Positions 2,419 to 22,308 of a stretch of 30,286 nucleotides of DNA are shown one piece after another. This DNA is from Butyriboletus loyo (lineage: Eukaryota > Basidiomycota > Agaricomycetes > Boletales > Boletaceae). The stretch spans positions 1 to 30,286 of the forward strand of contig JBBPSI010000274.1 of NCBI GenBank assembly GCA_038093515.1, in the 5' to 3' direction. Below the pieces are notes generated by a model. That model was not told the DNA's origin. It saw only the letters and a list, made by a program, of their open reading frames with translations, and did no database searches. The stretch's first letter is position 1. The number at the start of each line of letters is the position of its first letter. The translations under genes and the position numbers were made by a program.

Positions 2419-2600
2419 TGTTGCGAGGCAACGCGCAGTCGAATGCTAGCACGTAGTACCCTTCACACGAGGTCCCACTACAGTTGCAGGTCTACACAAA
2501 GACCTGGCAAGATGGAATCAAGGAGCTTCAACTTAATCCTCAACTGTTGCCAGCGAATAGACAAGTGGTTAAAACTAGGGAATCCTAGTCTAACCACTAG

Positions 2601-2610
2601 CCCTTTTATA
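2601..2610 (-). promoter_or_regulatory. TATA box of LTR-alpha
   Basis: TATAAAAGGG on the minus strand, with an equivalent in every alpha copy. The predicted transcription start, about 30 nt downstream, coincides with the self-primer sequence. Confidence 0.6.
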
Positions 2611-2759
2611 TTGTACAAGGATGCGCACAGACCATGCTGTGCGTGTGAGGAACTACTATACATGGATAGACTAAAGAAGGGAAGCGCAACGGTGATTAAC
2701 CACACGAGGCACGGGGATCAAAAAGAAGAGAAGTAAACGGAGATTAAATACATGTGTTG

Positions 2760-2861
2760 TGACGTCATAGAGTCTAGGCCTGGTCTAGGCCATGACGTCA
2801 TATGCTTAGTCAGCAAGAGATCACATGTAAGTTCCCACGATCACGTGCGCTATGTCACGTG
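2760..2861 (-). promoter_or_regulatory. U3 array of CRE-like and E-box motifs
   Basis: Two palindromic TGACGTCA sites (2760-2767, 2793-2800) flank a CTAGGCC repeat, followed by two CACGTG boxes (2842-2847, 2856-2861). TGACGTCA is the classic bZIP (ATF/CREB) site and CACGTG a bHLH site. In older alpha copies the same positions read TGATGTCA or CACATG, as deamination would produce. Confidence 0.5.
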
Positions 2862-2927
2862 ACCTTTGAAAGTGAAAACGACTAAGTCCGAATTGAAAGT
2901 GTACAAATAAAATGTTAGATTATAACA

Positions 2928-3833
2928 GTTTGGGTTCTGGGAACAATCAGGCCAGATGTGCCCAACGTTGCTGTACCCAAAACAGGTCCTTGTTTCCTTT
3001 CTGGTATCTACTGCTCCAATGTCCATAGGAGTGCCTCTACCAGGCTATAGTCTGACAGCAGTGTAGCCAGGAGGTGACCCATGAGGAGGTGAACAACTCC
3101 AAGGGTTTTGGTTATTGTAGGGCCAAAATTGATATCTGGCCTGACCACTAGCTCCCCTTTCTGAGTGCATCTGTTCGAAAGTAGGGCCTGCCTTCCAATA
3201 TTCCTCTATTAACTGATCGAGATCGTCTATGACCTCTGCCTTTACGGAAAGGAAGACCTGTTTGTAGATCTTGTGCTTGACTGCCCTTTTCAGCAGTTCA
3301 ATTGCATGACCCAGTTTGGCTTCTGATTGTTTGTATAGAATTTTAAAGTGCTCCAAGAAGGTATATATGGGCACAGTTCCTTGTTGTAAGGTACAAAGCT
3401 TTCTAAGGCTATCATGCATGAGAATGTCGATCTGGAAATGATTGCATATCTTTTTCTGGAGATCCTTCCAGCTAGGCCAAGCGGTGTCATCCTTGTAGCC
3501 TAGTGACATGTCCTTTGGATCTAGCCACTCCTCTTTGTCATCCACAAACTCTTATAATGCTAATTGAGTGAAATCCTTCCCATGTCCCTTTATTCAGCTG
3601 AGAACTGCAATGGTTTGGACTTTGTCAGTTTTCCACTTTTGGACTGACACCCAAATTTTAAGTGAAGCCCACCAATAATGGAACTTCAACCTATCACCAT
3701 CCCATTCTCCTGGATTGGCAATCTTTTTTGAAACATTTTTCTCTTTTTCCTTGTTTAGCCATTGTGCAAAGAGGTTGTGCATAAGCTGGTCATTATAGCC
3801 AACCATGGCAGGTCCCAAAGGTCCTCCTGACAT
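2928..3833 (-). pseudogene. gag: Broken Gag of chromovirus element 2
   Basis: Minus-strand frame homologous to the intact Gag at 435-1640. It starts MSGGPLGP at 3833 and continues NPGEWDGDRLKFHYWW, HFQIDILMHDSLRKL and AIELLKRAVKHKIYKQVF. It stays in one frame but carries at least three stops: TGA in the SRIKG motif, TAA about 17 codons later, and TAG before PGRGTPMDIG. The zinc knuckle reads CFGYSNVGHIWPDC, so its second Cys is lost. The gene is cut at 2928 by insertion of element 1. Its own 5' LTR is at 4712-5189; the rest of the element, from mid-RT onward, is at 15421-18812 in the opposite orientation. Confidence 0.88.
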
Positions 3834-4711
3834 CCTTTTATCCTCTTGAGGAAAATCATCCAACAATGTTTTGGAACTCAGTTTGACCTAATTCCAAGTC
3901 TGCTGATCCCAATCATGTTCAGAAAGTTCTCCATCTCCTTGTGGGTGTTGGACGGTAGAAAATGAGAGTTTGGTGGTGAATTTGTTTTTATTGAAGGCAA
4001 GGGTAATTGTAAATGGGTTTGTTTGTTTCCCAATGATGGCAGTAAAAACTTTGAGAGCAAAATAGAAAATTGTGATGAGGATGACATAGGTGGCAATGGT
4101 AGTGAAGATGAAAAGACCAAGATAGTTCATTTGATTTTTTCTTTGGCAATTTCCTAGTAAACTAACTACAAACTGCAAAGATCCTTACTGTCCCCTATCT
4201 TCCAAAGGAACTCTGGGGAAGTCTACAGCAAGTAGGACAAAAGAAGTATTTCTTTGATCGGAGGTAGTATCTCCTTCAAAGTTTGCTTCAGTAATGAAGC
4301 ATAATGGGTAAAGATTTTTTTACTACTATGTAACAAATGATTATGACTGTTTAATGACACTCTACCTCCCATGTTACCACAGGGACTAATGAAACAATAT
4401 AAGCTCAGTTGTAGGGTTTTGGGGGACCCTATGCCACTCTTTGCAAATCAGGCATGACCCTGATGTGGACTGTCACTCCAAAGGGAGGAGATAGAAGGTC
4501 TGACTATTCGAGACAAAGTCAGTGCTTCTGAGGCACTCCCCTAAAGGCATGGGGGAAACAAAAATGAAAACAGGTGAATAGCCTATACTAGCCCTATTCT
4601 CTGGGTGGCAAAAAGCTCTATAAGCGAGGCACCTACTCTGTCAAGTGGAAGTGTACTATGCAAACCATCCCTGCCCTGGGAACCAGGTGTGTATCCTTAG
4701 CTTTAACCAAG
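3834..4711 (-). other. Leader of element 2 with primer-binding site
   Basis: This is the counterpart of the 1641-2418 leader. Shared blocks lie at 4176-4320 and 4368-4570. The hairpin CTTCA-GTAA-TGAAG (4286-4299) replaces GTCCG-GTAA-TGGAC of element 1. The primer-binding site (4695-4709) is complementary over 15 nt to LTR bases 4851-4865. No convincing gene is present; the minus-strand frames at 3878-4178 look accidental. Confidence 0.6.
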
Positions 4712-5189
4712 TGTTATGATCACAGGAGTAAATCCAACAAAAGTCACAAGTGGTTTTACTAGGGTTGCAGTTCTACACAAAGAACTGGCAAGATTATAGA
4801 ATGTAGCAAAGTACCTTAGTTCCTTAACTGTTTCCAGTAAACAAGACAAGTGGTTAAAGCTAAGGGATCTTAGCCCAAACCACAAGCCTTTATATATTGT
4901 ACAGGATGGTGCACAGACCTAGCTGTGCATGTGATAAACTACTATACATGGTTAGACTAAGAAGCCAATGGCAATCAGAAAGAAGAGAAGCAAACAGAGA
5001 TTAAGTACATGAGGTATGATGTCATAGTCTAGACTGATGATGTCATGGGCCAGTCTGGACCATTATGTCATAGGCTCTGTCTAGACTTTGATCACATGTA
5101 CTATCCCATGATCACATGCACTGAGTCACATGACCTTTGAAAGTGAAAGGTGAAGTCCAAAAGCATGGAAATAATATAGTATTATAACA
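4712..5189 (-). repeat. LTR-alpha, 5' LTR of element 2 (478 bp)
   Basis: On the minus strand it starts TGTTATAATACTATATTATT and ends GATCATAACA. These end sequences are shared only with the LTR at 18334-18812, which identifies the two as the LTR pair of one element. The outer flank on the minus strand is GTACT (5194-5190), identical to the flank after 18812. The pair now lies in opposite orientations about 13 kb apart. Confidence 0.92.
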
Positions 5190-5203
5190 AGTACTGGTAT
5201 ATA

Positions 5204-6020
5204 TGTTACAGTTTTACCCCTAAGTGTACCCTGCCACTTGTTTTCCCATGCTCACGCGCCCCTGCTGTCCCTGCCACCCTGTGATCCCGCCCATCACCCA
5301 CTCCCCAGTCACTAGTGGACATCATCCACTTTCCCAGTCCTTCCTAGACGTCTCAGTACTGCAACACTGAGACAACCCCTATCTTGTTGCCCCATCAGGC
5401 CAAACCTTCAGCTGAGCTGTTGTGTCTCTCCTTTCTTATCCAATGACATTTGGTTTGTCACGTGACTAGCACATGACTAGATTACGACGTGTCTCTACCT
5501 ACACGCCGAGACCCATATCCAAGGGCTCCACTGTTCACGTCCCCTTTGCCCTATGGGCCCCGCCTCGTGGACATTGTCACTTCACATTCTGCCCTTCCCA
5601 TTTGCTGATGATGTCACCATCTTACTCAGAGCTTCGCTCCCTTGTTACCAGCACTTTGCTGCTTCTCCATTCACCATTATGACTCAAGTAGACTCATAAC
5701 CCCTTGCCCTTACTGCCATGCACAGCTCAGTCTGTGCACCCTACCTTATAGTATATATACACATACTTAGATAGTACAAGTCTCTAGCTAATTCTACAAA
5801 TCTACCAAGTGCCTAGCAATCTAGCAGTATATCCCTTTCTGCTGATAAAGCCAATAAGAGTCTGCTCAATCTCATCTGGTCGCCACCACATGACAACTTG
5901 CTGACACTTGCTTTGCAGAGAGCCCAATAGTGTCATCTACGCAAGTTGGCATCTTCCCAATTAGGCTCGAGCCCCTATTCAAGTGCTTGCTGCTAGTTTG
6001 TTTTGTGCATCAGCATAACA
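5204..6020 (+). repeat. Solo LTR-beta (817 bp)
   Basis: TGTTACAGTTTTACCCCTAA to CAGCATAACA, flanked by ATATA on both sides (5199-5203 and 6021-6025). It sits inside the older, minus-strand LTR-beta whose remains are at 5190-5203 and 8098-8850. The duplication is low-complexity but is in the right place, since the flanks rejoin to a normal LTR-beta sequence. Confidence 0.85.
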
Positions 6021-6257
6021 ATATATACAGTGGCTCAAAAAACTGTTCACATGTTTGCATATTTTACATTAAATATCACTCAACACAATAACCCCTGATC
6101 CTAACCCTAGGTGGTGGGTGTATGAAATATGGTACCTACCCTTGGCCTTCTATTGGCCCAGGAATCAGGTAATATGGATATGGTTTGATGGAATGTTAGC
6201 TATTCTAAAATGACAGGTCATGCGAACAGTTGTTTGACTTTACAAAAATCCAACTAT

Positions 6258-7736
6258 CTAGTATTTGGTATGAGCTCTCTTGGCCTTGATAACTGCTTCA
6301 ACTCTTCTAGGCATGCTTTCTATCCATTTGTGACACTGTTCCACACAAATCTTCCCCTACTCTACCACCACCCTTTCCCATAATTGATGAAGTCCTTCAG
6401 GAGCACTATTATAAGCTGGGTGTTATAATCGTATCTCTTATAACTATCTTTTGCGTTTGGACTTCATCATATTTCTCTTTCAAAGGTCATGTGACTTTGC
6501 GCACGTGATCGTGGGATTATACATGTGATCACAGGCTGACTAAGCATATGATGTCATGGTCCAGACTGGCCCAGACTCTACGACGTCATGCCTCATGTAT
6601 TTAATCTCCGTTTGCTTCTCTTCTATTTCCCATCATCGTCGACTCGTGACTCCTTCATATGTACATGTATAGTAACTAGTCTCATGCACTGCATGGTCTG
6701 TGCGCATTCCCCTGTAATATAAAAGGGCTTGTGGTTGCAGCTAGGATTCCCTAGCTTTAACCACTTGTCTTATTCACTGGCAACAGTTGAGAGATTAAGG
6801 CTTGAGCTATCCTCATTACACCTCGCCAGTACTTGTGTAGCACTGTGACAGTTGCGGAACCCCGTGTGACTTGATAACTCCATTGTCTCGTAACACTGGG
6901 TGATATTGTTTGAGGTGATTTCAAGTGTGTTCAATGGGGTTGAGGTCTGGATATTGTGCAGGCCAATCCAGAAGCTTGATTCCTTGCTCCTCAAACCAAT
7001 TCTGGGCTCTTTTGCAGGTATGTTTGGGATCATTATTCTGCTGAAAAATGATATCATGTTGAGAAATTCCAGATTTCTCCATGTGTTATAGCAATTCTTC
7101 CTCTAGAATTTACACATACTATTCACCATCCATCCTCCCCTCAACCTCACTTAAAGCCCCTACTCCATTGAACCCTATACCATTAGGAAACTTGCTTTAA
7201 ACTTGACTGTACCTTTAACCTCTCTGGCAGTTAGGCTCTCTCTCTTGTTTTTCCACACATACACTCCTGTCCATCTGACCCAATTCTATTTATTTTGGTC
7301 TCATCCAACCAAATAATCCTCTTCCAGCCCTTATTGATACTTGAGAAAAAAGGAAAATCATCTTTTTCTAGGGCTAATTGGAAGAAGACATTTCTTCATC
7401 ATCATCACAGCCTTTAAATGCACCCTCCTTGAGGTCTTTTCTCACTGTATGTGAGGGGATTGGAGGTTCAATGATGGAATTGATGAAATTTGTAGCCTGG
7501 ACTGCATTTTTGGCCTTGCCAGTAATGATTTGCTGGACAATAACACATTTGTTGGTAGGAGTAAGCTTAGAAGGACAGCTAGCATGAAGCTTCTCCTTGT
7601 CAGGTTGGATCTCTTGGAGTACCCTAGCCACAGTAGACTTCCCTAGGCCCGTTTGGGAGGCAATCTTCCTAGTTGAAAGGTCAAGAGAGGAGAGAGAGAT
7701 AATATTTTGTCTTAGAGAGGTGGAAATGGACTTCAT
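6258..7736 (-). pseudogene. Broken Tc1/mariner transposase (Tc1-A copy 1)
   Basis: Starts MKSISTSLRQN at 7736 with a helix-turn-helix (STRKIASQTGLGKSTVARVL), as in Tc1 DNA-binding domains. After about 100 residues the frame breaks. Pieces of the catalytic domain follow in shifting frames (DETKINRIGSDG near 7275; the DNDP...PIEH region near 7040-6900). The solo LTR-alpha then splits the gene, and the tail ending in the HTKY-type C-terminus reaches the TAG at 6260-6258. Many stops make it inactive. Confidence 0.85.
6421..6895 (+). repeat. Solo LTR-alpha (475 bp) in Tc1-A
   Basis: TGTTATAATC to CTCGTAACA with a perfect CTGGG duplication (6416-6420, 6896-6900). It interrupts the 3' part of the Tc1-A transposase. 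Confidence 0.95.
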
Positions 7737-7888
7737 GGTGATGGTGAGAAAGTAAACATAAGAGGATGGGGTTTATATATGTTGGCTGATACTCAGTTAC
7801 ATAAAGGTAACATAATAGGACCCTTTATGGATGTATGTAATGATATTACAGCATCTAGGGTCTAATATATGTGATCAAAACTTAAAGT

Positions 7889-8097
7889 CAAAAAACTGTC
7901 TGCATGATGTGTCATTTTAGAATAGCTGACATTCTATCAAACCATATCCATATTACCTGATTCCTGGGCCAATACAAGGCCACCAGCGGGTACCTTATTT
8001 CATACACCCATCACCTAGGGTTAGGATCAGGGGCTATTGTGTTGTGTGATATTTAATGTAAAATATGCAAACATGCAGACAGTTTTTTGAGCCACTG
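7889..8097. repeat. Tc1-A terminal module (209 bp)
   Basis: The inner edge reads TCAAAAAACTGTCTGCATG (7889-7907). The outer edge is its perfect reverse complement (8072-8090), followed by the GCCACTG terminus. The interior holds CTAGGGTTAGG, reminiscent of the telomere repeat. Equivalent modules are at 6028-6237, 25131-25340 and 28538-28747. Confidence 0.85.
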
Positions 8098-8850
8098 TAT
8101 ACTATAAGGTAGGGGTGCATAGACCAAGCTATGTGGGGTAATGTTGGGCTAAGGGTTCTGAGTTGACTCAGGTCTGTTGAACATATATTAGAATTATATA
8201 ATATACTAATTACATAACATGTGTAGTCAGATCATATATGTACTTCAAACTCAGCTTATCTGAGTTCTAATCAATCTTGTTCTTACACTGTGATGTGCAC
8301 ACCAGCAAGCTACCAACAACCAACAAGTGAGTACCTTTGGTACCTCCTCACAGTCTCCCTTTCAACAAGGTCAGAATCACAAAAGGAGAAGTGGCAAAGT
8401 GCTGGTAATGAGGGAGAAAAGCTCTGAGTAAGAATGATGATATCACCAGCGAATAGAAAGTGCTGAACAAGAAGTGATGATGTCCAGAGTATGGAGCCCA
8501 CAGGGAAAAGGGGATGCTGCCAGCAGAGACCTTGGATATGGGTCTTTGCATGCTAGTCAAGACATGTTGTAATCTAGTCACATGCAAGTCATGTGATGAA
8601 TAAAATGTCATTGGTCAAGAAAGGGGAGATGCAACAGCTTAGCTGAGGAACTTGGCCTGGCAGGGCAGATGATAGGGACTATCTCTGTAACTTGGGACAG
8701 AGATATCTGGAGTGACTGGGATAGTGGATGACAGTCCACTGGCAACTGGGAGAGTGGGCAATATGCTGTATCATGGAGACAGTGGGGTGGTGGGATGTGG
8801 TAGCATGGGGAAATGAGTGGTGGGATATGCTTAGGGGCAAAACTGTAACA
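8098..8850 (-). repeat. Older LTR-beta, 5' part (split by insertions and inversion)
   Basis: On the minus strand this runs from TGTTACAGTTTTGCCCCTAA (8850) to the TATA region. It resumes at 5203-5190 after Tc1-A and the younger LTR-beta, where it is cut by element 2 at GTACT. Its 3' part is at 18813-19071 on the plus strand. The base flank is CACTA (read from 8855-8851), equal to the CACTA after 19071. The minus-strand frames at 8310-8988 fall inside the LTR and are not genes. Confidence 0.88.
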
Positions 8851-9066
8851 TAGTGTGCTAAATAATATAATGTTTGATGCACCACATATGGAGGCTAGAA
8901 TGAAACTCAAAAATGCGAGTACCCATAGTAAACCAAGAGCAATAGCACTCTTGTTCTGCAGGGCTGGAAACATTATTGCATGCAACAAATGTTTAGATTA
9001 AAAGCCTTTAGCAGGGCTCATAACCTTTTGGTAAAGTCCAAGCAGGCACACTGAGGGCAATGAAGG
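8851..9066 (-). other. Host-like sequence beside the older LTR-beta
   Basis: Not part of any recognised repeat. On the minus strand one frame encodes a hydrophobic, probably membrane-spanning stretch (ALGLLWVLAFLSFILASICG). Removing the insertions joins this segment to 19072 onward through CACTA. Whether it is truly coding is unclear, because other frames are also fairly open. Confidence 0.35.
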
Positions 9067-9520
9067 TGTTACACTTGTGGTGCTAACAACTAGAACTTTA
9101 GGCAGCACTCTGGAGTAGCTGTAGGACTTGTCTGAAGGCAATCTCAGTCTATGTCTAAGTGCTGACACTTAGAGACTGGAAAGAAGAAGTTGCTAGCAGG
9201 TTGATTGCGTAGAACTAGATACTGTACAAGGGTAGAGTCACTAGGTATTTGTACTTTGTGGACCCATGCACAGACTGTGCCTACATCAGGTTGTATGAGT
9301 TGCCATGAGTCAGGGCAAGTCAGAGAGACAGGAATGGAAGATACTCTAGAACATTCTAGAGTGGGAAAGAAACAGCATCTGGAATAGGGATTATCATGAC
9401 TAAGCAGAACAGCTAGCCCATTCGAAGAATAGGAGGTGAAGCCTCAGAGAAAATGGTAGTCCAAATGGAAGAGGGGAAAAAGAGTATACCACCATGACGT
9501 TATCCCAGACAACTTTAACA
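9067..9520 (-). repeat. Solo LTR-gamma (454 bp)
   Basis: On the plus strand TGTTACACTTGTGG to CTTTAACA, with a GAAGG duplication (9062-9066, 9521-9525). The body matches the other gamma copies (GCTAACAACTAGAACT near 9090). Its U3 start is longer and divergent. Confidence 0.85.
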
Positions 9521-9685
9521 GAAGGATGCAAGGGTAAACCTATCAGTGGAAAGACTCACCAATAATATGAGAGAGAGTATCACAAACAGGGGTACTTGAA
9601 GAGCATAAGGAGCAAGGCTCAACTTAGAGATATCACAGTAGTGGTGAAAGATCTAAAGAAAAGTGACAAGCCATAAGGGCTGTCT
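9521..9685 (-). other. Host-like sequence between LTR-gamma and Tc1-C
   Basis: A unique stretch with no repeat match in the window. The minus strand has an open hydrophobic frame (PLFVILSLILLVSLSTD) that stays open across the excised LTR-gamma into 9061-9000 (SVPAWTLPKGYEPC then stop). It may be a broken membrane-protein exon. Confidence 0.3.
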
Positions 9686-10504
9686 TACAGTGAGTGAATA
9701 AACCCTTGCAATGTTTCACTGTTTTGCACTAGATGCCATGTAGCACCTGATTGCATGGGAATTCCGCTTGGCATTGGTGAGATGGGTGATAGCACTGCCC
9801 CCTGGCTACAAATAGGTCCCTGGGTCATGTGATGTGGCCATGTGGCTGTGGAGATATGTCTATTCTAAAACAGATATACCATTTCAAGGGTTTATTCACT
9901 TTTAGCCTCAACACTGGAATCTCAGTCAAATGAAAGGATAATTGTGTTTGTTTGGTCCTACAAACAAAGATACACATATAAACATTATGTCTGAGTTGGG
10001 AAACGTTCACACACTTCTTTCTTCCCAACTTCTACCACCATGAAATCTATCTCCTCCACCCAAAAGAATACCATCTTGACCATGCTTGATTCTGGTCATT
10101 CTGCTTGCTTCATTGTCTCTACCACTGGCCTTCATCTGCCCACCATATCTAGGCTTCATTCAAAGGAGTGTTCTAATGTGCAAAAGTCCACTAGAGGTCA
10201 TCCATCCCAGCTTTCTTCAGCTAATATCTGCCATGCTATCCACCTCATCTCTACTCACAAGGCAAAATATGCTGTCCAGGTGACCAAAGCTCTCACCAAT
10301 ATTATCAATCAACCCCTCAACCCCAACACATATGCCAGCACTTGAAAAAACCTGGTATAAAGGCTGTGGTCAAGAAAAAATGACCTATCCTCTCTGCCAG
10401 GCATTGCAAGGCAAGAGTAGACTTAGCCTATGCTTACAAGGATTGGACTCTGGAGGACTGGAAGAGGGTAGTATGGTCTGATGAGACTATGATAAATCAC
10501 CTAG

Positions 10505-11003
10505 TGTTATAATCATAACATTTATTCGCTTTGGACTTAGTCATTTTTACTTTCAAAGGTCACGTGACATAGTGCACGTGATCGTGGGAACTTACATGTG
10601 ATCTCATGCTGACTAAGTATATGATGTCATGGCCTAGACCAGGCCTAAACTCTATGATGTCACGACACATGTATTTAATCTCCGTTTACTTCTCTTCTTT
10701 ATGATCCCCACGCCTCGTGTGGTTAATCACCGTTGCGCTTCTCTTCTTTAGTCTAGCCATGTATAGTAGTTCATCACACGCACAGCATGGTCTGTGCGCA
10801 TCTCTGTATAAATATAAAAGGGCTTGTGGTTAGACTAGGATTCCCTAGTTTTAACCACTTGTCTATTCGCTGGCAACAGTTGAGGACTAAGCTAGAACTC
10901 CTAGTTCATACTTGCCAGGTATTTGTGTATACCTGCAACTGTAGTGGACCCTGTGTGACAAGGCATTCGTACTGGTATTCGACCGTGCATTGCTAGCGTA
11001 GCA
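10505..11003 (+). repeat. Solo LTR-alpha (499 bp) in Tc1-C
   Basis: TGTTATAATCATAACA to GCGTAGCA with a CCTAG duplication (10500-10504, 11004-11008). The last bases read TAGCA instead of TAACA. It carries TATAAATATAAAAGGG and the self-primer AGTTTTAACCA, like element 1. Confidence 0.94.
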
Positions 11004-11534
11004 CCTAGGATCAGATGGATGCAAATGGATGTGAAAAAAGCTAGGAGAAAGGCTCAGTGATAGACTAGTGGAGGGAACACTTGGGTTTTGGAGAAGGTTC
11101 TGTGATGATGTGGGGCTGTACAAGTTGGTAAAGGGCTGGGTATACCACCAAGATTGATGGTAGGATGGATGGGGACCTATATTTCCAAATTTTGAAGGAC
11201 AAACTTCAAGATTCCCTTCAGTATTATGGTCTCAATCCATCTGGCACCATCTTCTAACAAGCCAATGACCCCAAGCATACTTGCAAGAAGGTCAAGGAAT
11301 GGCTAGATGAATAGGAATTTAGTACTATGATATGGCCAGCACAGTCTCCTGGTATTAACCCAATAGAACATGCCTGGGGTTACCTCAAGAGGAGACTTGC
11401 AGAGTATGAACACCCCCTCAAGGGAACACTGGAGTTGTGGAGAGAATTTAGATAAAGTGGGACAAGATACTAGTTGTAGAGTGTCAGAAGTTGATTGAAA
11501 GCATGTCTAGAAGGGTTCAGGCAGTGCTCAAGGC

Positions 11535-11961
11535 TTTTACGCTGGGCGCTAACAACTAGAACTCTGAGGCGGCACTCTGGAGTAGCCGCAGGACTCGGGA
11601 GACAATTCTGAGCTGGGTCTCAGACTATGTCTTAGTGCACACACTAAGAGTCTGGAGTGGAAACTAATTGCTAGCAGTGAACTGCGTAGAACTAGATAAG
11701 TTACATTGTTGTAAAGACTGTGTTTATATACTACTGGGATCTGCGCACAGACCATGTCCCTAATTGGGTCATGAGAGCCAAAAGACAAATGTGGAAGGAA
11801 TACTCTAGAAGCTTCTTGAGTATGAGAGAAACAGCATCTGTGTGTGAGAAGTGATGACTAATCAGAATGGTTCGTACTGTTCAAAGGGAACTAGCAAAGT
11901 GCTAGGAGAAAACGGTAGTCCAAACAGTAATGGAAAGAAAAAGTAGACCACTACTGTAACA
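11535..11961 (-). repeat. Solo LTR-gamma (427 bp) in Tc1-C
   Basis: The plus-strand edges TTTTACGCTGGGCGC and CTACTGTAACA are those of the copy at 14869-15295 in reverse, with an AAGGC duplication (11530-11534, 11962-11966). One terminal base is altered (TTTTAC for TGTTAC). Confidence 0.93.
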
Positions 11962-12235
11962 AAGGCCAAGGGAGGGTATACCAAGTACTGATATCTCCCA
12001 AATACCCTTCTTTCACCAAAAGTGAATAAACCCTTGCAATGGTGTACCTGTTTTAGAATAGACATATCTCCACAGCCACATGGCCACATCACATGACCCA
12101 GGGACCTATTTGTAGCCAGGGGGCAGTGCTACCACCCAGCTCACCAATGCTAAGCGGAATTCCCACGATATCAGGTACTACATAGCATCTAGTGCAAAAC
12201 AGTGAAACATTGCAAGGGTTTATTCACTCACTGTA

Positions 12236-12890
12236 TATACATGTATAGTACAGCAGTGTTTACTTTTTTTTTTACTTTTTTTTTCTGATTTCTGTCCCTT
12301 GTGGGATAGACTACCCTATGTAGGACATTCCATCTAGTCTATGGAGGCCCCTGCCCCCACTGCTTTCCCTGATCATGCAAATGCCCTGGTTTAGGATTGC
12401 CCTCACCAGTCCACCATTCCTGCCAGCCATTTTAGATGCACTAATCTTTCAAATTGGCAGTGACTTTATTTTGCTGTCGATGTTGAAGTGTGATCTGTCA
12501 TGGCTGTAGATGAACATGTACTCAGGCTGTCTTACAATAGCCTTTTGTACAGAAAGATGTGGAGTGCAAGGTTTTTGCTAATTAAGTAGTTTGAGTGTTT
12601 GAGTGATGAGACTCAATACGGTCACATGGAATCTGCTCTCTCCCTCGTTCTCCTGTTTCCTACTTTGTCTCCAGTTGGCTTTCGCCGAGTCAGGACGAGC
12701 AAGTTGAGGCCCCATGGGGTGCTGCTTGCGAAGTTTTTGTGGTGCTTTGTTTCATGCACGATCTGTGTTTTTTAGCATAGTGTTAGTTGTTGGTGGGTTT
12801 CATGGTGGGTACATTACCAAATGTGTCCTTTAGTCATCCTGTACCATTGATGTATCTTATCAAGTGCTTTGTTGCTTCATCATCCATAAG
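12236..12890. other. Unclassified sequence left of Tc1-B
   Basis: Matches none of the repeats in the window. It starts with a long T-rich tract (12258-12283; A-rich on the minus strand). It retains CpGs around 12680-12730, unlike its neighbours. No frame is convincing on either strand, although a plus-strand frame at about 12590-12770 has coding-like composition (FRRVRTSKLRPHGVLLAKF). Its right end should have been the 5' half of element 2's RT if Tc1-B were a simple insertion, but it is not. The join at 12890 is therefore an inversion breakpoint. Confidence 0.4.
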
Positions 12891-13235
12891 TACAGTGGGC
12901 AACCAAACTGTTGCAATGTTGGCAACACTTTGATTGTTAAGCTAATAACTCAAGAACCACTAAAGGCAAACCTCCTAAACCTACCCATAGAAGAAAGCCA
13001 TAATGAAGGGCTTTCCAAAAATATATACATTGCTTATGTAATTCATTCTATATCAGGAGATATTCACCAATTAAGCAAGGGTACTCATTGCAACAGTTTT
13101 GTTGCTAACTCTATAAAATATTAGAATCATATATTGTGGCTGAGTATTACATAAGCAATGGGTCATGTGATGCATAAGAAGTTCAACATTGTGCAAACAC
13201 ATCAAAACACCATCGCTTTTTCCATTACTTCCATC

Positions 13236-14252
13236 ATGAAATCCCTTTCTATTGAACAAACCAACCAAATCATCTCCTGCCTGGAAATGGGTCAATCCAC
13301 TTGCCAGATCTCACATTCTACTGGTCTCAACCACTCTACCATTAGTAGACTTTGCTCCAAACACTGTCCAGACCTACTCAAAGCCTCTGGTGGTTGCCCA
13401 TCCCTCATAACTCCCACTGACATGCGCCATGCCATTTGTCTTATTGGTACTGGGAAGGCTGAAAATGCTGTCCAGGTTACCAAAACTCTTCAGGACATCA
13501 AGAACCATCCCATCTCCCCCAAAACCATTCATCATCACCTCAGGAAGGCTGGTATGAAGGCTGTGGTGAAGAAGAAATGCCCCCTTCTCTCCATGCATCA
13601 TAGGAGGGCAAGAATGGACTTTGCTGTAAGCCATCAGGATTGGACTGTGGAGGACTGGAAGCATGTCATATGGTCAGATGAGACCAAAATCAATCACATT
13701 GGGTCAGATGGAAGGAAATGGGTGTGGAAAAAGGCAGAAGAGGGCCTAAGTGATAGACTAGTGGAATGTACAGTGAAGTTTGGAGGAGGATCAGTGATGA
13801 TATGGGGTTGTATGACCTGGGAAGGAGTTGGAATGGCTTTCAAGATTGATGGTAAGATGGATGCTAATCTTTATGTGCAGATCATGGAGGATGAACTCCA
13901 GCAAACTCTTCAGTATTATGGAAAAACTCCAGAGGACATTATCTTTCAGCAGGATAATGACCCCAAGCATACCAGCAGGAGAGCCAAGGAGTGGTTTGCT
14001 GACAATGGATTTGAGATCATGGTGTGGCCTGCTCAGTCTCCAGACCCCAGCCCCATAGAACATCTATGGTTCCTTCTCAAAAGAAGGCTAGCAGAGTATC
14101 CTGAGTCATCTAAGGGGATTTTGGAGTTGTGGGAGCATGTACAGGCAGAGTGGGATAGGATTGGGACTGCACAGTGTCAGGAGTTAATTGAAAGTATGCC
14201 TAGAAGGATTCAGGAGGTGATTAAAGCCAAAGGAGGATATACTTCATACTAA
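13236..14252 (+). CDS. Tc1/mariner transposase, DD34E, apparently intact
   Basis: An uninterrupted frame of 338 codons if started at MKSLSIEQTN (13236), the start shared by the Tc1-A and Tc1-C transposases; an in-frame ATG at 13158 would add 26 residues. N-terminal helix-turn-helix (STCQISHSTGLNHSTISRLC, residues 21-40), a second DNA-binding region to about 105, then the DDE domain. WSDETKINHIGSDG holds D148, FQQDNDPKHTS holds D240 and SPIEHLW holds E275, giving the DD34E spacing of the Tc1 group. The C-terminus IKAKGGYTSY matches the decayed relatives. It would cut and paste the element at TA sites in the nucleus. Two LTRs inserted downstream do not touch the gene. Confidence 0.93.
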   Translation: MKSLSIEQTNQIISCLEMGQSTCQISHSTGLNHSTISRLCSKHCPDLLKASGGCPSLITPTDMRHAICLIGTGKAENAVQVTKTLQDIKNHPISPKTIHHHLRKAGMKAVVKKKCPLLSMHHRRARMDFAVSHQDWTVEDWKHVIWSDETKINHIGSDGRKWVWKKAEEGLSDRLVECTVKFGGGSVMIWGCMTWEGVGMAFKIDGKMDANLYVQIMEDELQQTLQYYGKTPEDIIFQQDNDPKHTSRRAKEWFADNGFEIMVWPAQSPDPSPIEHLWFLLKRRLAEYPESSKGILELWEHVQAEWDRIGTAQCQELIESMPRRIQEVIKAKGGYTSY

Positions 14253-14265
14253 TTTAGATACCCTT

Positions 14266-14763
14266 TGTTATAAATGTATCTCTTATAACAGACTTTTGTG
14301 TTTGGACTTCATCATTTCTCTTTCAAAGGTCACGTGACTCAATGCACATGATCGTGGGATAATACATGTGACCATAAGCTGACTAAGCATATGACATCAT
14401 GGTCCAGACTGGCCCAGACTCTATGATGTCATGCCTCATGTATTTAATCTCTGTTTACTTCTCTTCTTTTTTGATTGCTGTTGACTTCTATTTAATCTCC
14501 ATCGACCCTGACTTCTTCTCGTATGTACATGTATAGTAATTAGTCTCATGCACTGCTTGGTCTGTGCACGTTCCCTTGTAATATAAATATAAAAGGCTGG
14601 TGGTTTGGGCTAGGATTCTCTAGCTTTAACCACTTGTCTATTCGCTGGCAACAGTTGAGGATTAAGGTCTTAGCTCTACTCTTTTATACTCACCAGTTCT
14701 TGTATAGAGCTGCAACAGTAGTGGAACTGCCTGTGACTTGATAACATTCATTGTCTCATAACA
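14266..14763 (+). repeat. Solo LTR-alpha (498 bp) in Tc1-B
   Basis: TGTTATAAATGTATC to CTCATAACA, with a CCCTT duplication (14261-14265, 14764-14768). It lies just after the transposase stop. Confidence 0.95.
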
Positions 14764-14868
14764 CCCTTGATATCAGCAATGAAAGTGTTGCAATGAGTAC
14801 CCTTGCTTGATTGGTGAATATTTCCATATAGAATGAATTACATAAGCAATGTATATATTTTTGGAAAG

Positions 14869-15295
14869 TGTTACGGTAGTGGTCTACTTTTTCTCCCCAT
14901 TACCGTTAGGACTATTGCATTCACCTAGCCTTTTGCTAGTTCCACTTGAACGGTGACAACTGTTCGTACTTAGTCATCACTTTCCGCGCATGGACACGCT
15001 TTCTTTCATACTCTGGAATGTTCTAGAGTATCTCTTCCTCATTTGTACTTTCGCTCTCGTGACCCGATTAGGGAGCGTGGTCTGTGCGCAGACCTCAGTA
15101 GTATAAAGCTTCTGTCTTTACACCCTGTAACGGTATCTAGTTCTACGCAGCCTACTGCTAGCAATTAGTATCACTTCCAGACTCTTAGTGTGCGCACTAA
15201 GACATAGTCTGAGACTCACCCAGAATCGTCTCTCGAGTCTCGAGGCCATTCCAGAGTGCCTCCTCGCTGTTCAATTGTTAGCGCCCAGCGTAACA
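14869..15295 (+). repeat. Solo LTR-gamma (427 bp) in Tc1-B
   Basis: TGTTACGGTAGTGGTC to CCCAGCGTAACA, with a GAAAG duplication (14864-14868, 15296-15300). It keeps many CpGs and has a TATAAAG-type box near 15102. It sits inside the right terminal module of Tc1-B. Confidence 0.95.
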
Positions 15296-15420
15296 GAAAG
15301 CCCTTGATTATGGCATTCTGCTATGGGTAGTTTTAGGAGGTTTGCCTTTAGTGGTTCTTGAGTTATTAGCTTAACAATCAAAATGTTGCCAACATTGCAA
15401 TGGTTTTGTTGCCCACTGTA

Positions 15421-16294
15421 TGCCATTGTCATTATTTACATTGATAATGTTATGATATTTACTAAAGGGAGAACTAAGGCGGAACACAAGGATATTGTAA
15501 AAGAAGTCCTCCAATGCCTTAGGGACAATGATTTATTTGTAAAACCAGAAAAATGGGTCTTTTCTTCTGATAGAGTAGACTTTCTTGGTAAGGTAGTTTC
15601 CAAGGACAGTGTTGAGATGCAGACCAAGAAAATGGATGTCATCTGTGACTGGCCCACTCCCACATGTCTCAAACAAGTTCAAGTGTTCCTTGGATTATGT
15701 AACTACTATAGAAGGTTTATCAAGGGCTTCTCAGAGATCGCTCGCCCTCTCAATAATTTGATGAAGAAGGATACTCCTTTCAAATGGGGTAAAGAAGAAC
15801 AGTCTGCATTTGATATGCTGAAAGAAATGTTTATGACAGCACCACTTTTGGCCTACCCAGATCACAACAAGGAGATGAGGGTAGAAATGGATGCTTTGGA
15901 TATAGCAGTAGGGGCCATTCTTTCTGTAAAAGGATCAGACAAACTTTGGTGACCCTGCACATTCCTTTCACACTCTTTTGATGCTGTGGAATGGAACTAT
16001 CTGATTTATGATAAAGAGCTATTGGTCATCATCCATGCATTGGAAGAATGGCTATCTAATTGGGAGAAAAGATTTTGAGATCTGGACAGATCATAAGAAC
16101 CTTGAATATTGGAAGAAGCCATAAACATTGTCAGGACGACAAGCTCACTGGCATGCACTTCTTCAAGAATTTAATTATTTGTTTGTGTACAAGCCAGGAT
16201 CTACCAATGGCAGAGCAGATGCACTTTTGCATTGAGCAGACCACAGTGATGCTGTAACAGATCACAACATGAACATTACTGTATTACCTCTGAA
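15421..16294 (+). pseudogene. pol: Element 2 Pol: RT C-terminal half and RNase H (broken)
   Basis: Starts mid-RT at AIVIIYIDNVMIF, where the catalytic YIDD is degraded to YIDN. RT thumb and connection motifs follow (FVKPEKWVF, FLGLCNYYRRFIKGFSE, PLNNLMKKDTPFKW), then RNase H (MDALDIAVGAILS, the LIYDKELLVIIHAL motif, and IWTDHKNLEYW in another frame). A TGA at 15950-15952 is probably a Trp codon mutated by G to A; a frameshift near 16075 and further stops follow. The preceding RT half is missing, replaced by Tc1-B and unrelated DNA. The gene continues at 16802 after the solo LTR. Confidence 0.9.
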
Positions 16295-16801
16295 TGTTAC
16301 GAGACAACGAAGTTATCAAGTCACACAAAGTTCCACTACTGTTGCAGTACTACACAGGTACTGGCAAGGTGTAATGAGGATAGCTCAAATCTTAATCTCT
16401 CAACTGTTGCCAGTGAATAAGACAAGTGGTTAAAGCTAGGGAATCCTAGCTGCAACCACGAGCCTTTTTATATTGTACAAAGATGCGCACAGACCATGCT
16501 GTGCGTGTGAGGAATTACTATACATGGATAGACTAAAGAAGAGGAGCGCAACGGTGATTAACCACACGAAGCGCGGGGATCAAAAAGAAGAGAAGTAAAC
16601 GGAGATTAAATACATGTGTTGTGACATCATAGAGTCTAGGCTTGGTCTAGGCCATGACATCATATGCTTAGTCAGCAAGAGCTCACATGTAAGTTCCCAC
16701 GATCACGTGCGCTATGTCACGTGACCTTTTGAAAGTGAAATTGACTAAGTTCGAATTGAAAGGTGTACGAAGTGTATGAATAGAATGTTATGATTATAAC
16801 A
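16295..16801 (-). repeat. Solo LTR-alpha (507 bp) inside element 2 pol
   Basis: On the minus strand TGTTATAATCATAACA to CTCGTAACA, with a CTGAA duplication (16290-16294, 16802-16806). Removing it with one duplication restores the Pol frame (ITVLPLN then LFLNKVSLS). It is closest by eye to the LTR of element 1. Confidence 0.96.
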
Positions 16802-17980
16802 CTGAACCTTTTCCTTAATAAAGTTTCTCTTTCATCTTCTTTTTACAATACATTACAAGAAGAATCTGAAAAAGAAAAAGAAAAAGAAATACCAGGATTC
16901 TATTACGATTCAGATCAATCTGTATTTATTAATGAAAAGAAAAAAGTCTTTGTGCCTGAAGCACTTAGAATACAATTACTTAACATATGCCATGACTCTT
17001 CTATTGCTGGCCACTCGGGTCAAGCTCATATGGCACACCTTCTTACACAATACTTTATGTGGCCTGGTGTCACAAAGGACATGAAACATTATGTAGAAAG
17101 CTGTCAAGTGTGCACCTTCACAAAGGGTAAGCAAAATGCACCGGCAGGTAAATTACTACCACTTCCCATGGCTAGTCACCCATGGGAAGATATTTCTGTT
17201 GATTTTGTTACTGGACTTCTGCTTTCTAATGGCTTTGATGCCATTTGTATGATAGTTGATCGTTTCTCCAAAGAAGTGGTTTATGTCCCTTGTTTGACAA
17301 CTACATCTTCTAAGGACTTAGTGGTTATATTTAGAGACAATGTTTGGTGTATTCATGGATTTCCCCTTACAATAGTTTCAGACCAAGGTCCTCAATTTGT
17401 TTCGGACTTTACCACAGAACTTTGCAAGCTTCTCGGAATTTCCCAGAAAATCTCTATGGCTTATCACCCTCAATCTGATGGGCAAACCAAATGGATAAAT
17501 AGGGAGATGGAACAATACTTATGTACCTATGTGGCTAAAAAACAAGAAACATGGGTTGAATGGATTAAAATCGCTCAGTTCAATCATAACAACTCTCTTA
17601 CTACTGCCACTGGTACTATTCCATTATCTATTACATGTAATTATTATCCATGTATCGGTTTCGAGAAATCCTCTTCTACATTAGCCGGAGATTTCGCATG
17701 TACAGCCAGAAAGGCTCATGCTGAAGTTAAGGAAGCTTTGGAAGAAGCTCGTAAAAGAATGGTATCACAGGCTGATAATAGACGATCAGCTGTGCTGGAA
17801 TACAAATTGGGGGATAGAGTTTGGCTCAGTATGGAAAACTTGAAGTTACCATATACCACCAGGAAACTCACACAGCATTGGATTGGTCCTTACTGAATCA
17901 CAGCTTTGAAGCCAAATGCTGTAACACTTCAGCTGCCCAGCAGCATGTGCATTCATCCCACCATCAATATTTCATATGTC
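16802..17980 (+). pseudogene. pol: Element 2 Pol: integrase (broken)
   Basis: Open from the LTR junction to 17896. An acidic/basic linker (EESEKEKEKEIPGFYYD) leads to an HHCC zinc-binding region (H-x-GHSGQAH ... CQVC) and the DDE core: first Asp in ISVDFVTGLL, second in IVSDQGPQFVSDF, Glu in NREMEQYLCTY. The usual GQTE(R)xN reads GQTKWIN. The stop after TQHWIGPY (17894-17896) is an apparent CGA to TGA change. The frame then continues (ITALKPNAVTLQLPS, IHPTINISYVKPY) before a frameshift near 17975 into the chromodomain. It would have inserted cDNA into host chromatin. Confidence 0.92.
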
Positions 17981-18227
17981 AAACCTTATTGGGCAACCTG
18001 TTATCCGCCCTGACCCTGTCAATGTCATGGACGAAGGGCATGTGGAATTTAAAGTAGATTATATTGTCTCTTCATGGATGAAGTGCAAGAAGTTAGAGTA
18101 TCTTGTGCACTGGAGAGGGTATGATGAAACAGATAGGACTTGGGAACCCATTTCCAATTTGGGCAATTTGCAGGACATAATAGCGGATTACCACCATGCC
18201 CACCCTTCCACCTCTCAACCTCTTTGA
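17976..18227 (+). pseudogene. Chromodomain at the C-terminus of element 2 Pol
   Basis: Reads VKVDYIV-like FKVDYIVSSW, LEYLVHWRGYDETDRTWEP and NLQDIIADYHHAHP, then a stop. The aromatic residues (Y of DYIV, W and Y of HWRGY, W of TWEP) are those of the chromodomains that define chromoviruses and steer integration to methylated histone marks. It is now one frame away from the integrase because of a small indel, so it is a remnant of the polyprotein rather than a separate gene. Confidence 0.88.
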
Positions 18228-18321
18228 GGCCTTACTCTGTTTGAATTTTCATTGTTATTTAAAGATTTCAGTCCAGAACACAGAACCACCTATCAAGGAA
18301 CTCATCTGGAATACGAGTCCT

Positions 18322-18333
18322 AGAGGGGGGTAG
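18322..18333 (+). promoter_or_regulatory. Polypurine tract of element 2
   Basis: AGAGGGGGGTAG directly abuts the 3' LTR, as needed for plus-strand DNA priming. Its place fixes the plus orientation of this half of the element. Confidence 0.75.
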
Positions 18334-18812
18334 TGTTATAATACTATATTATTTCCATGCTTTCAGACTTCTCCTTTCACTTTCAAAGGTCATGTGACTC
18401 AGTGCACATGATCATGGGATTATACATGTGATCAGAATCTAGACAGAGCCTATGATGTAATGGTCCAGACTGGCCCATGACATCATCAGTCTAGACTATG
18501 ACATCATACCTCATGTATTTAATCTCTGTTTACTTCTCTTCTTTTTTGATCACCGTTGACTTCTTAGTCTAACCATGTATAGTAGTTTATCACATGCACA
18601 GCTAGGTCTGTGCACCATCCTGTACAATATATAAAGGCTTGTGGTTTGGGCTAAGATCCCTTAGCTTTAACCACTTGTCTTGTTTGCTGGAAACAGTTGA
18701 GAGACCAAGATACTTTGCTATATTCTATAATCTTGCCAGTTCTTAGTGTAGAACTGCAACCCTAGTAAAACCACTTGTGACTTTTGTTGGGATTACTCCT
18801 GTGATCATAACA
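18334..18812 (+). repeat. LTR-alpha, 3' LTR of element 2 (479 bp)
   Basis: Its ends TGTTATAATACTATATTATT and GATCATAACA match the 5' LTR at 4712-5189. The differences are scattered and mainly transitions. The flank GTACT (18813-18817) is the partner of the GTACT beside the 5' LTR. Confidence 0.93.
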
Positions 18813-19071
18813 GTACTTAGACAAGTATGAACTCTAGCTAATTCTATGCATCTATCTTGTGCATTAGTAATCTAGCAATATACCCATCTCTTGCTGATAA
18901 AGCTGATAAGAGCCAGAAAGGTCTTGTCTGGTTGCCACCACTTGACATCTCACTGACACTTGCTTTGCAAGACACCTGATAGTGTCATTATGTGAGTCAG
19001 CTAGTTTCCTCATTAGGCTCAAGCCCCTATAAGTGCTTGCTTGCTAGTTTGTTGTGCACATCAGTGTAACA
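18813..19071 (+). repeat. Older LTR-beta, 3' part
   Basis: From GTACTTAGACAAGTATGAAC to CAGTGTAACA. It continues exactly the LTR-beta sequence interrupted at 5190 (joined, it reads ATACCAGTACTTAGACAAG, as in the copy at 27008). It is followed by CACTA (19072-19076), matching the CACTA beside the LTR start at 8850. Confidence 0.9.
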
Positions 19072-19384
19072 CACTATGGTTGTTGGCTGATTCATTCATT
19101 ATGCTTGTGTTTCATTTCTGAAGATCAGGATTTTACTTTCCAATGGCATTCACAAACTCACCACCATGCCTTGCAAATTAGATCAACTTCTCACCCAAGT
19201 CCTTCTAACTTACAAGAGGTTAATGAGTGTTCTAGGCCTACTCAAAGAGTTGAGCACCATTGTTATCACTCCTCTTCCTACTTTCCCACACTGCCAAATA
19301 TCCATTTTCACACTCCTTTTCCTCCACTGCCTTATATCCATTGTCACCCTTGCACTCCAAATAACTCAGTCGACATCAACCCTC

Positions 19385-20171: not shown

Positions 20172-20317
20172 CCCTCTCAATATTGACAACATTTTTGGAC
20201 ATGCACACCAACACTCTTATCCTCCACATCCTTCACACAATGACTTCATACACCAACTGCACCATCTCAGCAACACCCTCTCTAATGTATCCACTGTTGG
20301 AGATGTTGCAGAGCCTG

Positions 20318-20740
20318 TGTTACAATTTCCTACTCTTTCTTCTTTCACCCCTATGGACTACTGTTCACCCCTAGGGTACAACTCCTATTATTCGAACAGC
20401 TTAACCATTCCGCTTAGTCATCTTCATCCCTATTTGGACGCTATTTCCACTTCACTCTGGATCTTTCCAGAGTCATACCCCTTTTCCACATCTGACTCAT
20501 AATGACTCTTATGACCTGTTGTAGGCATGGTCTGTGCATGGGTCTCAGTAGTATAAATACCCAGCGCCTTGTACTTGTACAAACTATCTAGTTCTATGCA
20601 ATCTACTTGCTAGCAGCTAGCTCCCTTCCAGACTCTTAGTGCCAGCACTAAGATGTAGTCTGAGACTTAGCTTCCAAGAGTCCTGTGGCTACTCAAGAGT
20701 GCCACCTGAGAGTCTAGTTGTTAGTGCCACAAGTGTAACA
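20318..20740 (+). repeat. Solo LTR-gamma (423 bp)
   Basis: TGTTACAATTTCC to CAAGTGTAACA, with a GCCTG duplication (20313-20317, 20741-20745). It contains CTATCTAGTTCTATGCAATC and CAGACTCTTAGTG, which are hallmarks of the gamma family. Confidence 0.94.
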
Positions 20741-20937
20741 GCCTGGTTCCACAGCAGGACCCTCTTCCCCTTGTCATTGGACCCAGTCCATTCTACATCC
20801 CTGGTTACCAAATGCTTCCACTAGCAAACCACCTTTCTGTTACAATTCATTCTTTTCTTTACTACTTAAGCATATCTCATGATAGCTTATCCCTTAGCCA
20901 ATCTAACTCAGAACCTTCTTCTTCTTCATAGACAACA

Positions 20938-21434
20938 AGATCCAACTCTCAATTTGTCACTTCCCATTCAAGGTTGTTATCTGGAATGTTCCATGACCTT
21001 CTATTGTAAGACCTTCCTTCAGCCAATGGCAATTCTCCTCCATATTGTATGATAGTCACCTTTCCTTTTCTATTCTTGGTGCATGCATATGTCAGTTACT
21101 ATAAAGTGGTGAGACTTAGCTACCATGTATGCTAAGCTAGATCTACTTGGAATCCCAGTCAATATCCTCATCCTCTCATCTCTTGTAGCAAGTTGTCTTC
21201 CTTCACAAGAACACCAGATAAATCCTTCACTTGAAAGGTTAGACTTGATGTCTAGAAGAACTATTGAGTTCCAGAACTACATCCAAGTCTACACTCGTAC
21301 TTACCCAGTCCAAGTATAACACTTCCTATGGGATTGTAATTGCTGTGGACTGTGGAATCTGATGCCATCCTGAAGGTGTTACCATGGTCCCTGGCCAGAT
21401 GGAACCAATGGCCTTGTCAGTCATCAAGCTGAAA
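20938..21434 (+). other. Coding-like debris with no assigned gene
   Basis: Short plus-strand stretches look protein-like (ILLHIV region near 21030; LDLLGIPVNILILSSLVAS at 21134; GVTMVPGQMEPMALSVIKL at 21377) but lie in different frames with stops between. They may continue the broken sequence at 19077-20937, with introns or decay. No family was recognised. Confidence 0.25.
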
Positions 21435-21704
21435 CTAGAGATCCTGGGATTCCTCCATCAGGAAGAAGAAGAGGTGAACACCAATGACATCAACAATGTG
21501 AGTGAACTGAACCAGATCTATAATGATTTGGTTGTAAATACTTCTGAGATTTATACCCACAGAATCACTTCCAAAGTTCAGATCTGATCCTTGAAAGTAG
21601 GTCTCCTCAAGCCCATCAATTGGGTCGATGAAAATGGCATCCACCATATTAAAAGGATCTTCAGTATACAAACTCATTCCTTCCTGCACAAATCCCTCTG
21701 TTCA
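21435..21704 (-). CDS. Small acidic unknown protein or exon
   Basis: The minus-strand frame GFVQEGMSLYTEDPFNMVDA, then IDGLEETYFQGSDLNFGSDS, is open for about 85 codons. A possible 3' splice site (TTGAACAG) precedes it at about 21705. It is acidic and glycine/aspartate-rich. The opposite strand carries an overlapping open frame (21384-21587), so the coding strand is uncertain. It ends next to the left arm of the large inverted repeat. It may be an exon of a host gene; no function can be assigned. Confidence 0.25.
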
Positions 21705-21721
21705 ATATTTGAGAATACTGG

Positions 21722-22308
21722 TGAATGATGCAAGATGAGACTGAGAGTGAAGAACCCTGCTACAGGAAGAACTCAATCCAATCAAAAGCAAAGAAATAAA
21801 GAAAAGGGTGTGATATGATCGACCCCAAAGAGAAGTAGAGAGGAAACAAAGAGAGGAACACCAGGGAAGGTCGTTTCCACTGATGCCTACACAGAAAACC
21901 TGTAATTCTGGACTTCCTCTGCTGTGGAATGGACTGGAGAGAAAATGGAAATGCAAGAAGATGGATGGAATCCATTGGCTATAGCTTGAAGATTGAAGGA
22001 TGAGAATGGGGGGTGACTAGATGATCACACAGAGAGGCAGGAGAGTCGAAAAGTAGTATTTTAGGTCATAGTTACAACCTTTTTATAGTCTGGGCATTTC
22101 CCAAGACTTGAAACACTAAGGATAAGTGAAAACTAAGTAGAAACATCAAGGGAATCATTGACAGAATGTATATAATCATAGCAGTTGTCATGGAAGTCAA
22201 TTGGATATAATAAGTATAAGATCAAATAGAAAGGAACCTACCTGTGAACACTTTCTGGACACACAGAACCTTGACATGGAATCTTGATGACCATGGAAAT
22301 ATCAGAAT
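21722..22308 (-). repeat. Left arm of a large inverted repeat (about 590 bp)
   Basis: TGAATGATGCAAGATGAGAC to GGAAATATCAGAAT. Read in reverse it matches 23335-23922 over the whole length with scattered substitutions and small indels. No clear flanking duplication is seen (CTGG against ACAT outside). The frames at 21702-21975 lie within this arm and are mirrored in the other arm. Confidence 0.85.

Follow-up and report, generated by a model that had tools for sequence, protein, structure and literature searches.

A Tc1-type transposon between the oppositely oriented halves of three nested repeats in Butyriboletus loyo: reading a probable inversion from target-site duplications

The contig JBBPSI010000274.1 of the bolete Butyriboletus loyo (assembly GCA_038093515.1; here contig C274), which at 30,286 bp makes up the entire window analysed in this study, carries three nested layers of repetitive DNA, namely the Ty3/gypsy-type retrotransposon element 2, the long terminal repeat (LTR) LTR-beta in which element 2 resides, and the dispersed host repeat in which LTR-beta resides. 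Each of these layers is split into two halves on opposite strands, the halves of each were formerly contiguous, and the Tc1-type transposon Tc1-B that lies between them has flanks that do not match each other. A single inversion restores all three layers. The inverted arrangement is certain for the contig and likely to exist in the organism, and as its best explanation we favour, with moderate confidence, that recombination between oppositely oriented Tc1-B copies inverted the DNA between them.

A preliminary description of this DNA had located a split and inverted pair of nested retrotransposons at 5190-18817. Element 2 indeed sits in LTR-beta; the outer LTR-beta itself reads as a solo LTR, and the span was drawn too narrowly, the relevant one being 2928-19384. 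All genome-wide searches covered the 30.3 Mb and 420 contigs of the assembly, with matches taken from listings, and the row counts given below are counts among the matches listed.

The first layer is recognised by the LTRs of element 2, which belong to the type called alpha. The alpha LTRs at 4712-5189 (minus strand) and 18334-18812 (plus strand) have matching ends and are both flanked by GTACT, as had been noted before, and the printed boundaries agree, reading ...CCAGTACT / TGTTATAATAC for the minus-strand 5' LTR and ...GATCATAACA / GTACTTAGAC at the end of the plus-strand 3' LTR. The pair aligns with 450 of 478 positions identical, 24 transitions, 4 transversions and one gap, and four transition doublets oppose TG to CA, as expected from separate CpG decay in each LTR. 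In the whole assembly (47 matches per search) each is the other's top non-self match by score, at 730 bits and 94% identity, and the next full-length match, on C170, reaches 91% and 90%. Thus no better-scoring partner exists in the assembly for either LTR, while a few partial matches of 282-376 bases equal or slightly exceed the pair in percent identity (94-95%; C20 with the 5' LTR as query, C13 and C270 with the 3' LTR). The TG..CA ends and the 5-bp target-site duplication (TSD) are those of a Ty3/gypsy element.

When the junction pattern, i.e. the alpha-LTR end joined to GTACTTAGA, was searched across the assembly, it matched the window with 0 mismatches, C28 with 2 and three places with 3 (a reversed control gave 8 matches), so that outside the window the assembly shows no such junction with fewer than 2 mismatches. 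One of the 3-mismatch matches, C405:5894-5912, looks like a beta/gamma-type LTR end beside the GTACTTAGA of LTR-beta, and the 10 bases of this end also terminate the window LTRs at 15295 and 20171. This site in LTR-beta may hence have been hit more than once and is perhaps a favoured target.

The second layer, the outer LTR-beta, starts on the minus strand at 8850 (CACTA / TGTTACAG) and ends on the plus strand at 19071 (GTGTAACA / CACTA), in full agreement with the preliminary description, and is interrupted on the inverted side by the transposon Tc1-A (~6026-8101). An empty site built from the reverse complements of 8150-8102 and 5203-5190 followed by 18818-18880 gives a normal LTR-beta, as had been proposed, and aligns with two other LTR-beta copies through GTACT. 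By plain arithmetic, with equal bases and no target preference, the chance of two exact 5-mers is about 1 in 10^6. The two TSD pairs do reconnect only if one side is flipped; the further claim that it is the DNA left of Tc1-B that is inverted holds in a relative sense only, since the whole contig comprises just 30,286 bp.

The third layer had gone unnoticed. The sequences outside the CACTA copies (8856-9050 and 19077-19384) are parts of one dispersed repeat, for which 40 of 48 right-flank and 40 of 47 left-flank candidates were scored. Among the matches listed, 29 of the 40 right-flank rows are paired, at a distance of exactly 5 bp, with a left-flank row of the opposite strand, three have partners at 7, 16 and 709 bp, and eight, including the window, are without a listed partner; in one of these eight, C375, the flanks are contiguous in the fetched locus. 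Same-strand flank pairs within 20 kb occur twice, namely in the window and in C110, where the right flank also has a normal 5-bp partner. CACTA is exact at the insertion site in three of nine fetched host copies and differs by 1-3 bases in the other six. The two flanks were hence contiguous before LTR-beta inserted. This line of argument does not depend on the TSDs and carries the most weight of all.

The features of the window up to the right host flank are as follows.

1-2927, minus strand: element 1, gypsy-type and apparently young, inserted in element 2 and running off the left end of the contig
2419-2927, minus strand: 5' LTR of element 1, followed by the 5 bp GTTTG (2928-2932); its 3' LTR lies outside the contig
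435-1703, minus strand: intact gag-like open reading frame (ORF) of element 1, 422 aa, from the ORF list; a protein search with it gave no match at E <= 1e-10
2928-4711, minus strand: 5' internal part of element 2 with gag (Retrotrans_gag PF03732), adjoining the alpha LTR
4712-5189, minus strand: 5' LTR (alpha) of element 2, flanked at 5190-5194 by GTACT (minus strand)
5190-5203, minus strand: outer LTR-beta, the 14 bases that separate the alpha LTR from Tc1-A, 13 of them as in another LTR-beta copy
5204-6020, plus strand: solo LTR-beta of later date, at the Tc1-A edge, with the TSD ATATA
6026-8101, minus strand: Tc1-A, with a TA of the outer LTR-beta as its target, containing a solo alpha LTR (6421-6895, TSD CTGGG)
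8102-8850, minus strand: 5' part of the outer solo LTR-beta, flank CACTA (plus strand 8851-8855, TAGTG)
8856-9066, minus strand: left flank of the host repeat, resuming at 9521-9687
9067-9520, no strand assigned: solo LTR of the gamma type, lying in the host repeat (TSD GAAGG)
9686-12237, plus strand: Tc1-C, at a TA in the host repeat, containing an alpha LTR (10505-11003, TSD CCTAG)
~11537-11961: gamma LTR inside Tc1-C with a degenerate left end and, by eye, AAGGC flanking it on either side
12238-12890, minus strand: short host-like stretch, A-rich tail, then 3' sequence (12472-12890) resembling a long interspersed nuclear element (LINE), similar to C294 and C215
12891-15420, plus strand: Tc1-B, the transposon at the breakpoint, with mismatched flanks and DDE_3 PF13358
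14266-14763 and 14869-15295: LTRs inside Tc1-B, alpha (TSD CCCTT) and gamma (TSD GAAAG), respectively
15421-18333, plus strand: 3' internal part of element 2, with the end of the reverse transcriptase (RT), RNase H, integrase and chromodomain
16295-16801: alpha LTR interrupting the 3' part of element 2, TSD CTGAA
18334-18812, plus strand: 3' LTR (alpha) of element 2, flank GTACT at 18813-18817
18813-19071, plus strand: 3' part of the outer solo LTR-beta, flank CACTA at 19072-19076
19077-19384, plus strand: right flank of the host repeat, resuming at 20173-20317, 20740-20838, 21322-21718 and 22440-23208

The coding parts of element 2 are divided in the same manner, and Pfam domains on each half bear out the earlier claim that gag lies on the minus strand and RT-integrase on the plus strand. 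Retrotrans_gag was found just above its cut-off (24.7 versus 24.1 bits), and the 3' part carries RVT_1 PF00078, RT_RNaseH_2 PF17919, Integrase_H2C2 PF17921, rve PF00665 and Chromo PF00385. The order gag-RT-RNase H-integrase-chromodomain of a chromovirus appears only after the inversion is undone, and the protease and the 5' half of the RT gene lie outside the contig. From its domains and LTR ends, element 2 is classified as a predicted Ty3/gypsy chromovirus. In a relative on C123 two LTRs (69683-70142 and 76457-76935), the 5' part of the RT (73041-74040) and its 3' part (74041-74876) lie on one strand in the usual order, and their spacing suggests that they form one element. By the same spacing, about 2.1 kb of element 2, from gag to the TA at which its RT gene is broken, would be expected to the left of the contig, beyond element 1.

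Tc1-B, which the preliminary description had taken as the edge of the inverted DNA, is also the breakpoint indicated by comparison of the flanks. It has the characters of a Tc1-mariner element, i.e. a transposase with DDE_3 PF13358 and HTH_Tnp_Tc3_2 and terminal inverted repeats (TIRs) of 216 bp, and all 20 fetched Tc1-B loci have a TA at the right end, 16 of them also at the left. In the window, RT sequence begins directly at the right TA, and on the left the homology of the LINE-like sequence to its relatives on C294 and C215 stops at the TA. Neither flank resumes on the opposite side, as expected of an element at the breakpoint of a transposon-mediated inversion by ectopic recombination, and the window's copy is alone among the 20 in having an RT match in its flanks. 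We use the label LINE-like on account of the A-rich tail and of what we take to be a Cys/His motif in the C294 relative; a Pfam search with this relative gave no match at E <= 0.05.

The TA in the RT gene was examined in 30 of 42 RT matches. The upstream RT sequence continues in 27 of these loci, and the remaining three carry a Tc1-type element at the same TA, namely Tc1-B in the window, Tc1-C in C110 and Tc1-B in reversed orientation in C144. The TA hence appears to be an insertion hotspot for Tc1-type elements. It lies at 15419-15424 of the window and directly precedes sequence coding for a motif of the YIDD type.

Other positions for the breakpoint were considered. Exact 5-bp TSDs, with TG..CA ends, were found for nine of 13 LTR boundary sets tested, seven of the nine lying between the halves of element 2, and a crossover inside one of these LTRs was rejected as speaking against this pattern; the four remaining sets are the gamma LTR in Tc1-C (AAGGC by eye), a beta fragment at ~27015-27275, a gamma LTR at ~28079-28529 and element 1. 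Both LTRs inside Tc1-B have matching TSDs, so that an exchange, if any, took place in Tc1-B itself, which among the elements tested between the halves is the one with clearly non-matching flanks. Tc1-C was rejected as the breakpoint and reads as an ordinary insertion, because on its far side host-like sequence runs on for ~25 bp before the A-rich tail. In comparisons of this far side with five host copies, 3, 0, 1, 8 and 93 of 300 shuffles reached the score, the fifth copy giving no support. A second Tc1-A copy (23957-25349) is without its left TIR (the alignment starts at 7900 of a Tc1-A that ends at 8101) and has an inverted-repeat region to its left and RNase H/RT sequence of another gypsy element to its right; it is perhaps another transposon with mismatched flanks.

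From our point of view, the history of the locus could be as follows. Ancestrally, the LINE-like insertion and a solo LTR-beta would both have sat in the host repeat, the latter with CACTA as its TSD, and this LTR-beta would in turn have housed a complete element 2 of the chromovirus type (gypsy), with the TSD GTACT. The LINE-like sequence and, at its TA, the RT gene of element 2 would each have held a Tc1-B copy, the two in opposite orientation, and recombination between these copies would have inverted at least 2928-12890 together with the ~2.1 kb of element 2 beyond the contig. What remained would be a single hybrid Tc1-B, bordered by LINE-like sequence to the left and by RT to the right, and each of element 2, LTR-beta and the host repeat would have been broken into halves of opposite orientation. 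One inversion ending in Tc1-B accounts at once for LTRs that face opposite ways, for the splitting of LTR-beta and of the host repeat, and for the mismatch at the transposon, whereas the second Tc1-B copy, the homologous recombination and a biological origin, as opposed to one in the assembly, are what we infer. Recombination between inverted Tc1-B copies would be the simplest cause, and the Galileo inversions of Drosophila offer a close precedent.

The decay of CpG dinucleotides bears on the order of the layers. The observed/expected CpG ratio (o/e), which spans values of 0.00 to 0.99, is in most cases smaller in the outer layers than in the inner ones and tends to track nesting depth. Among inner sequences it is 0.88 for element 1 (1-2932), 0.90 for the gamma LTR in Tc1-B, 0.79 for the alpha LTR in the RT-integrase part and 0.99 for a solo beta LTR at 19385. 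The values for element 2 are 0.00 and 0.06 (LTRs) and 0.14 (2938-4711), those for the outer LTR-beta 0.03 and 0.00 and those for the host repeat 0.12 and 0.09. The gamma LTR in the host repeat has 0.14, near the host's own value, and the figures for Tc1-A and Tc1-C include their nested LTRs. Transposon decay of the CpG type has been reported for some fungi, according to the available part of PMC4352252.

Several observations limit the case for recombination between Tc1-B copies. CpG decay is not a strict clock, Tc1-B having a lower ratio (0.03) than the RT sequence that surrounds it (0.12). A reciprocal junction, that is the 5' part of the RT or of the LINE-like sequence beside Tc1-B, was not recognised among the matches listed: the search with the RT 5' part gave at least 41 rows, 22 of which have no RT 3' row listed at 30 bp or less, and the three of these 22 that were read (C329, C12 and the window's own other element at 25992-26992) all continue past the TA; the sequence upstream in the LINE found its own locus only; and a search with the reciprocal-junction pattern returned just two matches, both at 3 mismatches. 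Tests of whether Tc1-B is a chimera speak for neither side: its two TIRs differ by 6.1%, the second highest value of 15, but the means within (0.036) and between copies (0.039) are alike, and its mosaic gain ranks ninth of 15. Since Tc1 elements duplicate TA, exchanged TSDs would be invisible here. The match on C405 weakens the argument from the TSDs alone, and leaves the one from the host copies unaffected. Finally, of the 120 pairs that 16 of the 20 fetched copies of Tc1-B form, 75 share exact runs of at least 127 bp; the longest run measures 580 bp, and the window's copy shares up to 291 bp.

Runs of this length are enough to mislead a short-read assembler, and an artefact of assembly, in which two inverted Tc1-B copies are real, the assembler crossed from one into the other and the flip exists in the contig only, is the rival we take most seriously, although we regard it as unlikely. 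A contig of only 30 kb that ends inside a retrotransposon (element 1), and the missing reciprocal junction, would both suit it. However, the artefact needs the same inverted Tc1-B pair, should have left an RT 5'/Tc1-B fragment, of which none was recognised in the 3 of 22 candidate rows read, and would have arisen in a contig that also holds nine other LTRs with exact TSDs.

We give somewhat less credence to a hybrid-end transposition, in which the ends of two Tc1-B copies in the LINE-like sequence, either sisters or neighbours, would have acted jointly and entered the hotspot TA of the RT gene, with an inversion as the outcome, much as under recombination. That this TA holds a Tc1-type element in 3 of 30 loci makes it look favoured, but hybrid-end transposition predicts near-identical Tc1-B copies at both breakpoints (a criterion in the available text of PMC2775673), and the second was not found; the present data tell neither it nor recombination from the other. 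More doubtful still is an extension of this idea, by which the TA, conserved in the RT gene of these chromoviruses, would be a repeated landing site of Tc1-type elements, aberrant Tc1 transposition into it rather than passive recombination would have made the inversion, and the catalytic motif of the RT would be a recurrent inversion breakpoint in this genome.

An inverted duplication with complementary losses, or a template switch in replication, could leave the same final halves. It would require several events with complementary losses, and the searches of the assembly showed neither a further alpha-LTR/LTR-beta junction of this kind at 0-1 mismatch nor a near-identical duplicate of either LTR, which renders it very improbable. 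Two unrelated insertions whose 5-bp flanks are alike by chance or target preference were rejected on the TSD pairs and the contiguity in host copies, and can practically be dismissed: LTRs here do often enter other repeats, and C405 hints at a favoured GTACTTAGA site, but matching TSDs, the same position in LTR-beta, mutual-best LTRs, contiguous host flanks and a second TSD would all have to coincide.

Three further observations were made along the way. A segment of ~175 bp (12297-12470) is inserted in the LINE-like 3' end, with GACAG on both sides by eye and weak dispersed relatives, and is a possible insertion of the short interspersed nuclear element (SINE) type. In the right part of the window, an inverted pair of ~720-bp repeats (21719-22438 and 23207-23925) flanks 768 bp of host repeat, and in the host copy L074 the sequences on either side of the first of them (21719-22438) adjoin directly. 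The relatives L030 (C294) and L031 (C215) are 99% identical over 1.7 kb, and near-identity of the pairs C216/C285 and C129/C323 was judged from matching hit positions and scores alone; such pairs suggest haplotype or segmental duplicates in the assembly.

If confirmed, the locus would be an unusually legible fossil. Two of its three nested layers have a TSD of their own, and for the third this genome offers dozens of copies for reference; together they would establish the ancestral order without an outgroup genome and assign the breakpoint to a single transposon. In repeat-rich regions, where synteny fails to do so, keeping account of the TSDs of nested repeats can reveal inversions or assembly errors. 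Both transposon-mediated inversions and the paleontology of nested elements are already known, and the present locus is a cleanly readable further case. The Galileo inversions of Drosophila are reportedly far larger.

Transposons and ectopic recombination in fungi are the subject of PMC3562529, PMC4112212 and PMC5004834, as far as their available parts indicate. The nearest parallel is found in Drosophila buzzatii, where, in the accessible text of Delprat et al. (2009; PMC2775673), recombination and hybrid-end transposition of Galileo are told apart by the chimerism of the copies. There, as in our locus, a DNA transposon lies at the breakpoint, its copies face opposite ways (which we infer here), flanks are exchanged and an inversion results; for Galileo, however, sequences cover the two breakpoints, the exchanged TSDs and the two chimeric copies, as compared with one breakpoint and an uninformative TA here. 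In the reversed-ends or alternative transposition of maize Ac/fAc, as set out in the available part of PMC8225341, transposon ends likewise lie at inversion breakpoints; these are hAT elements, however, whose 8-bp TSDs mark the mechanism, and no such mark is readable in our case. Lastly, REANNOTATE (PMC2672092) also reads post-insertion rearrangement from nested LTR elements, in its accessible description without a TSD check, whereas here the TSDs of two layers and the host copies of the third give the ancestral order.

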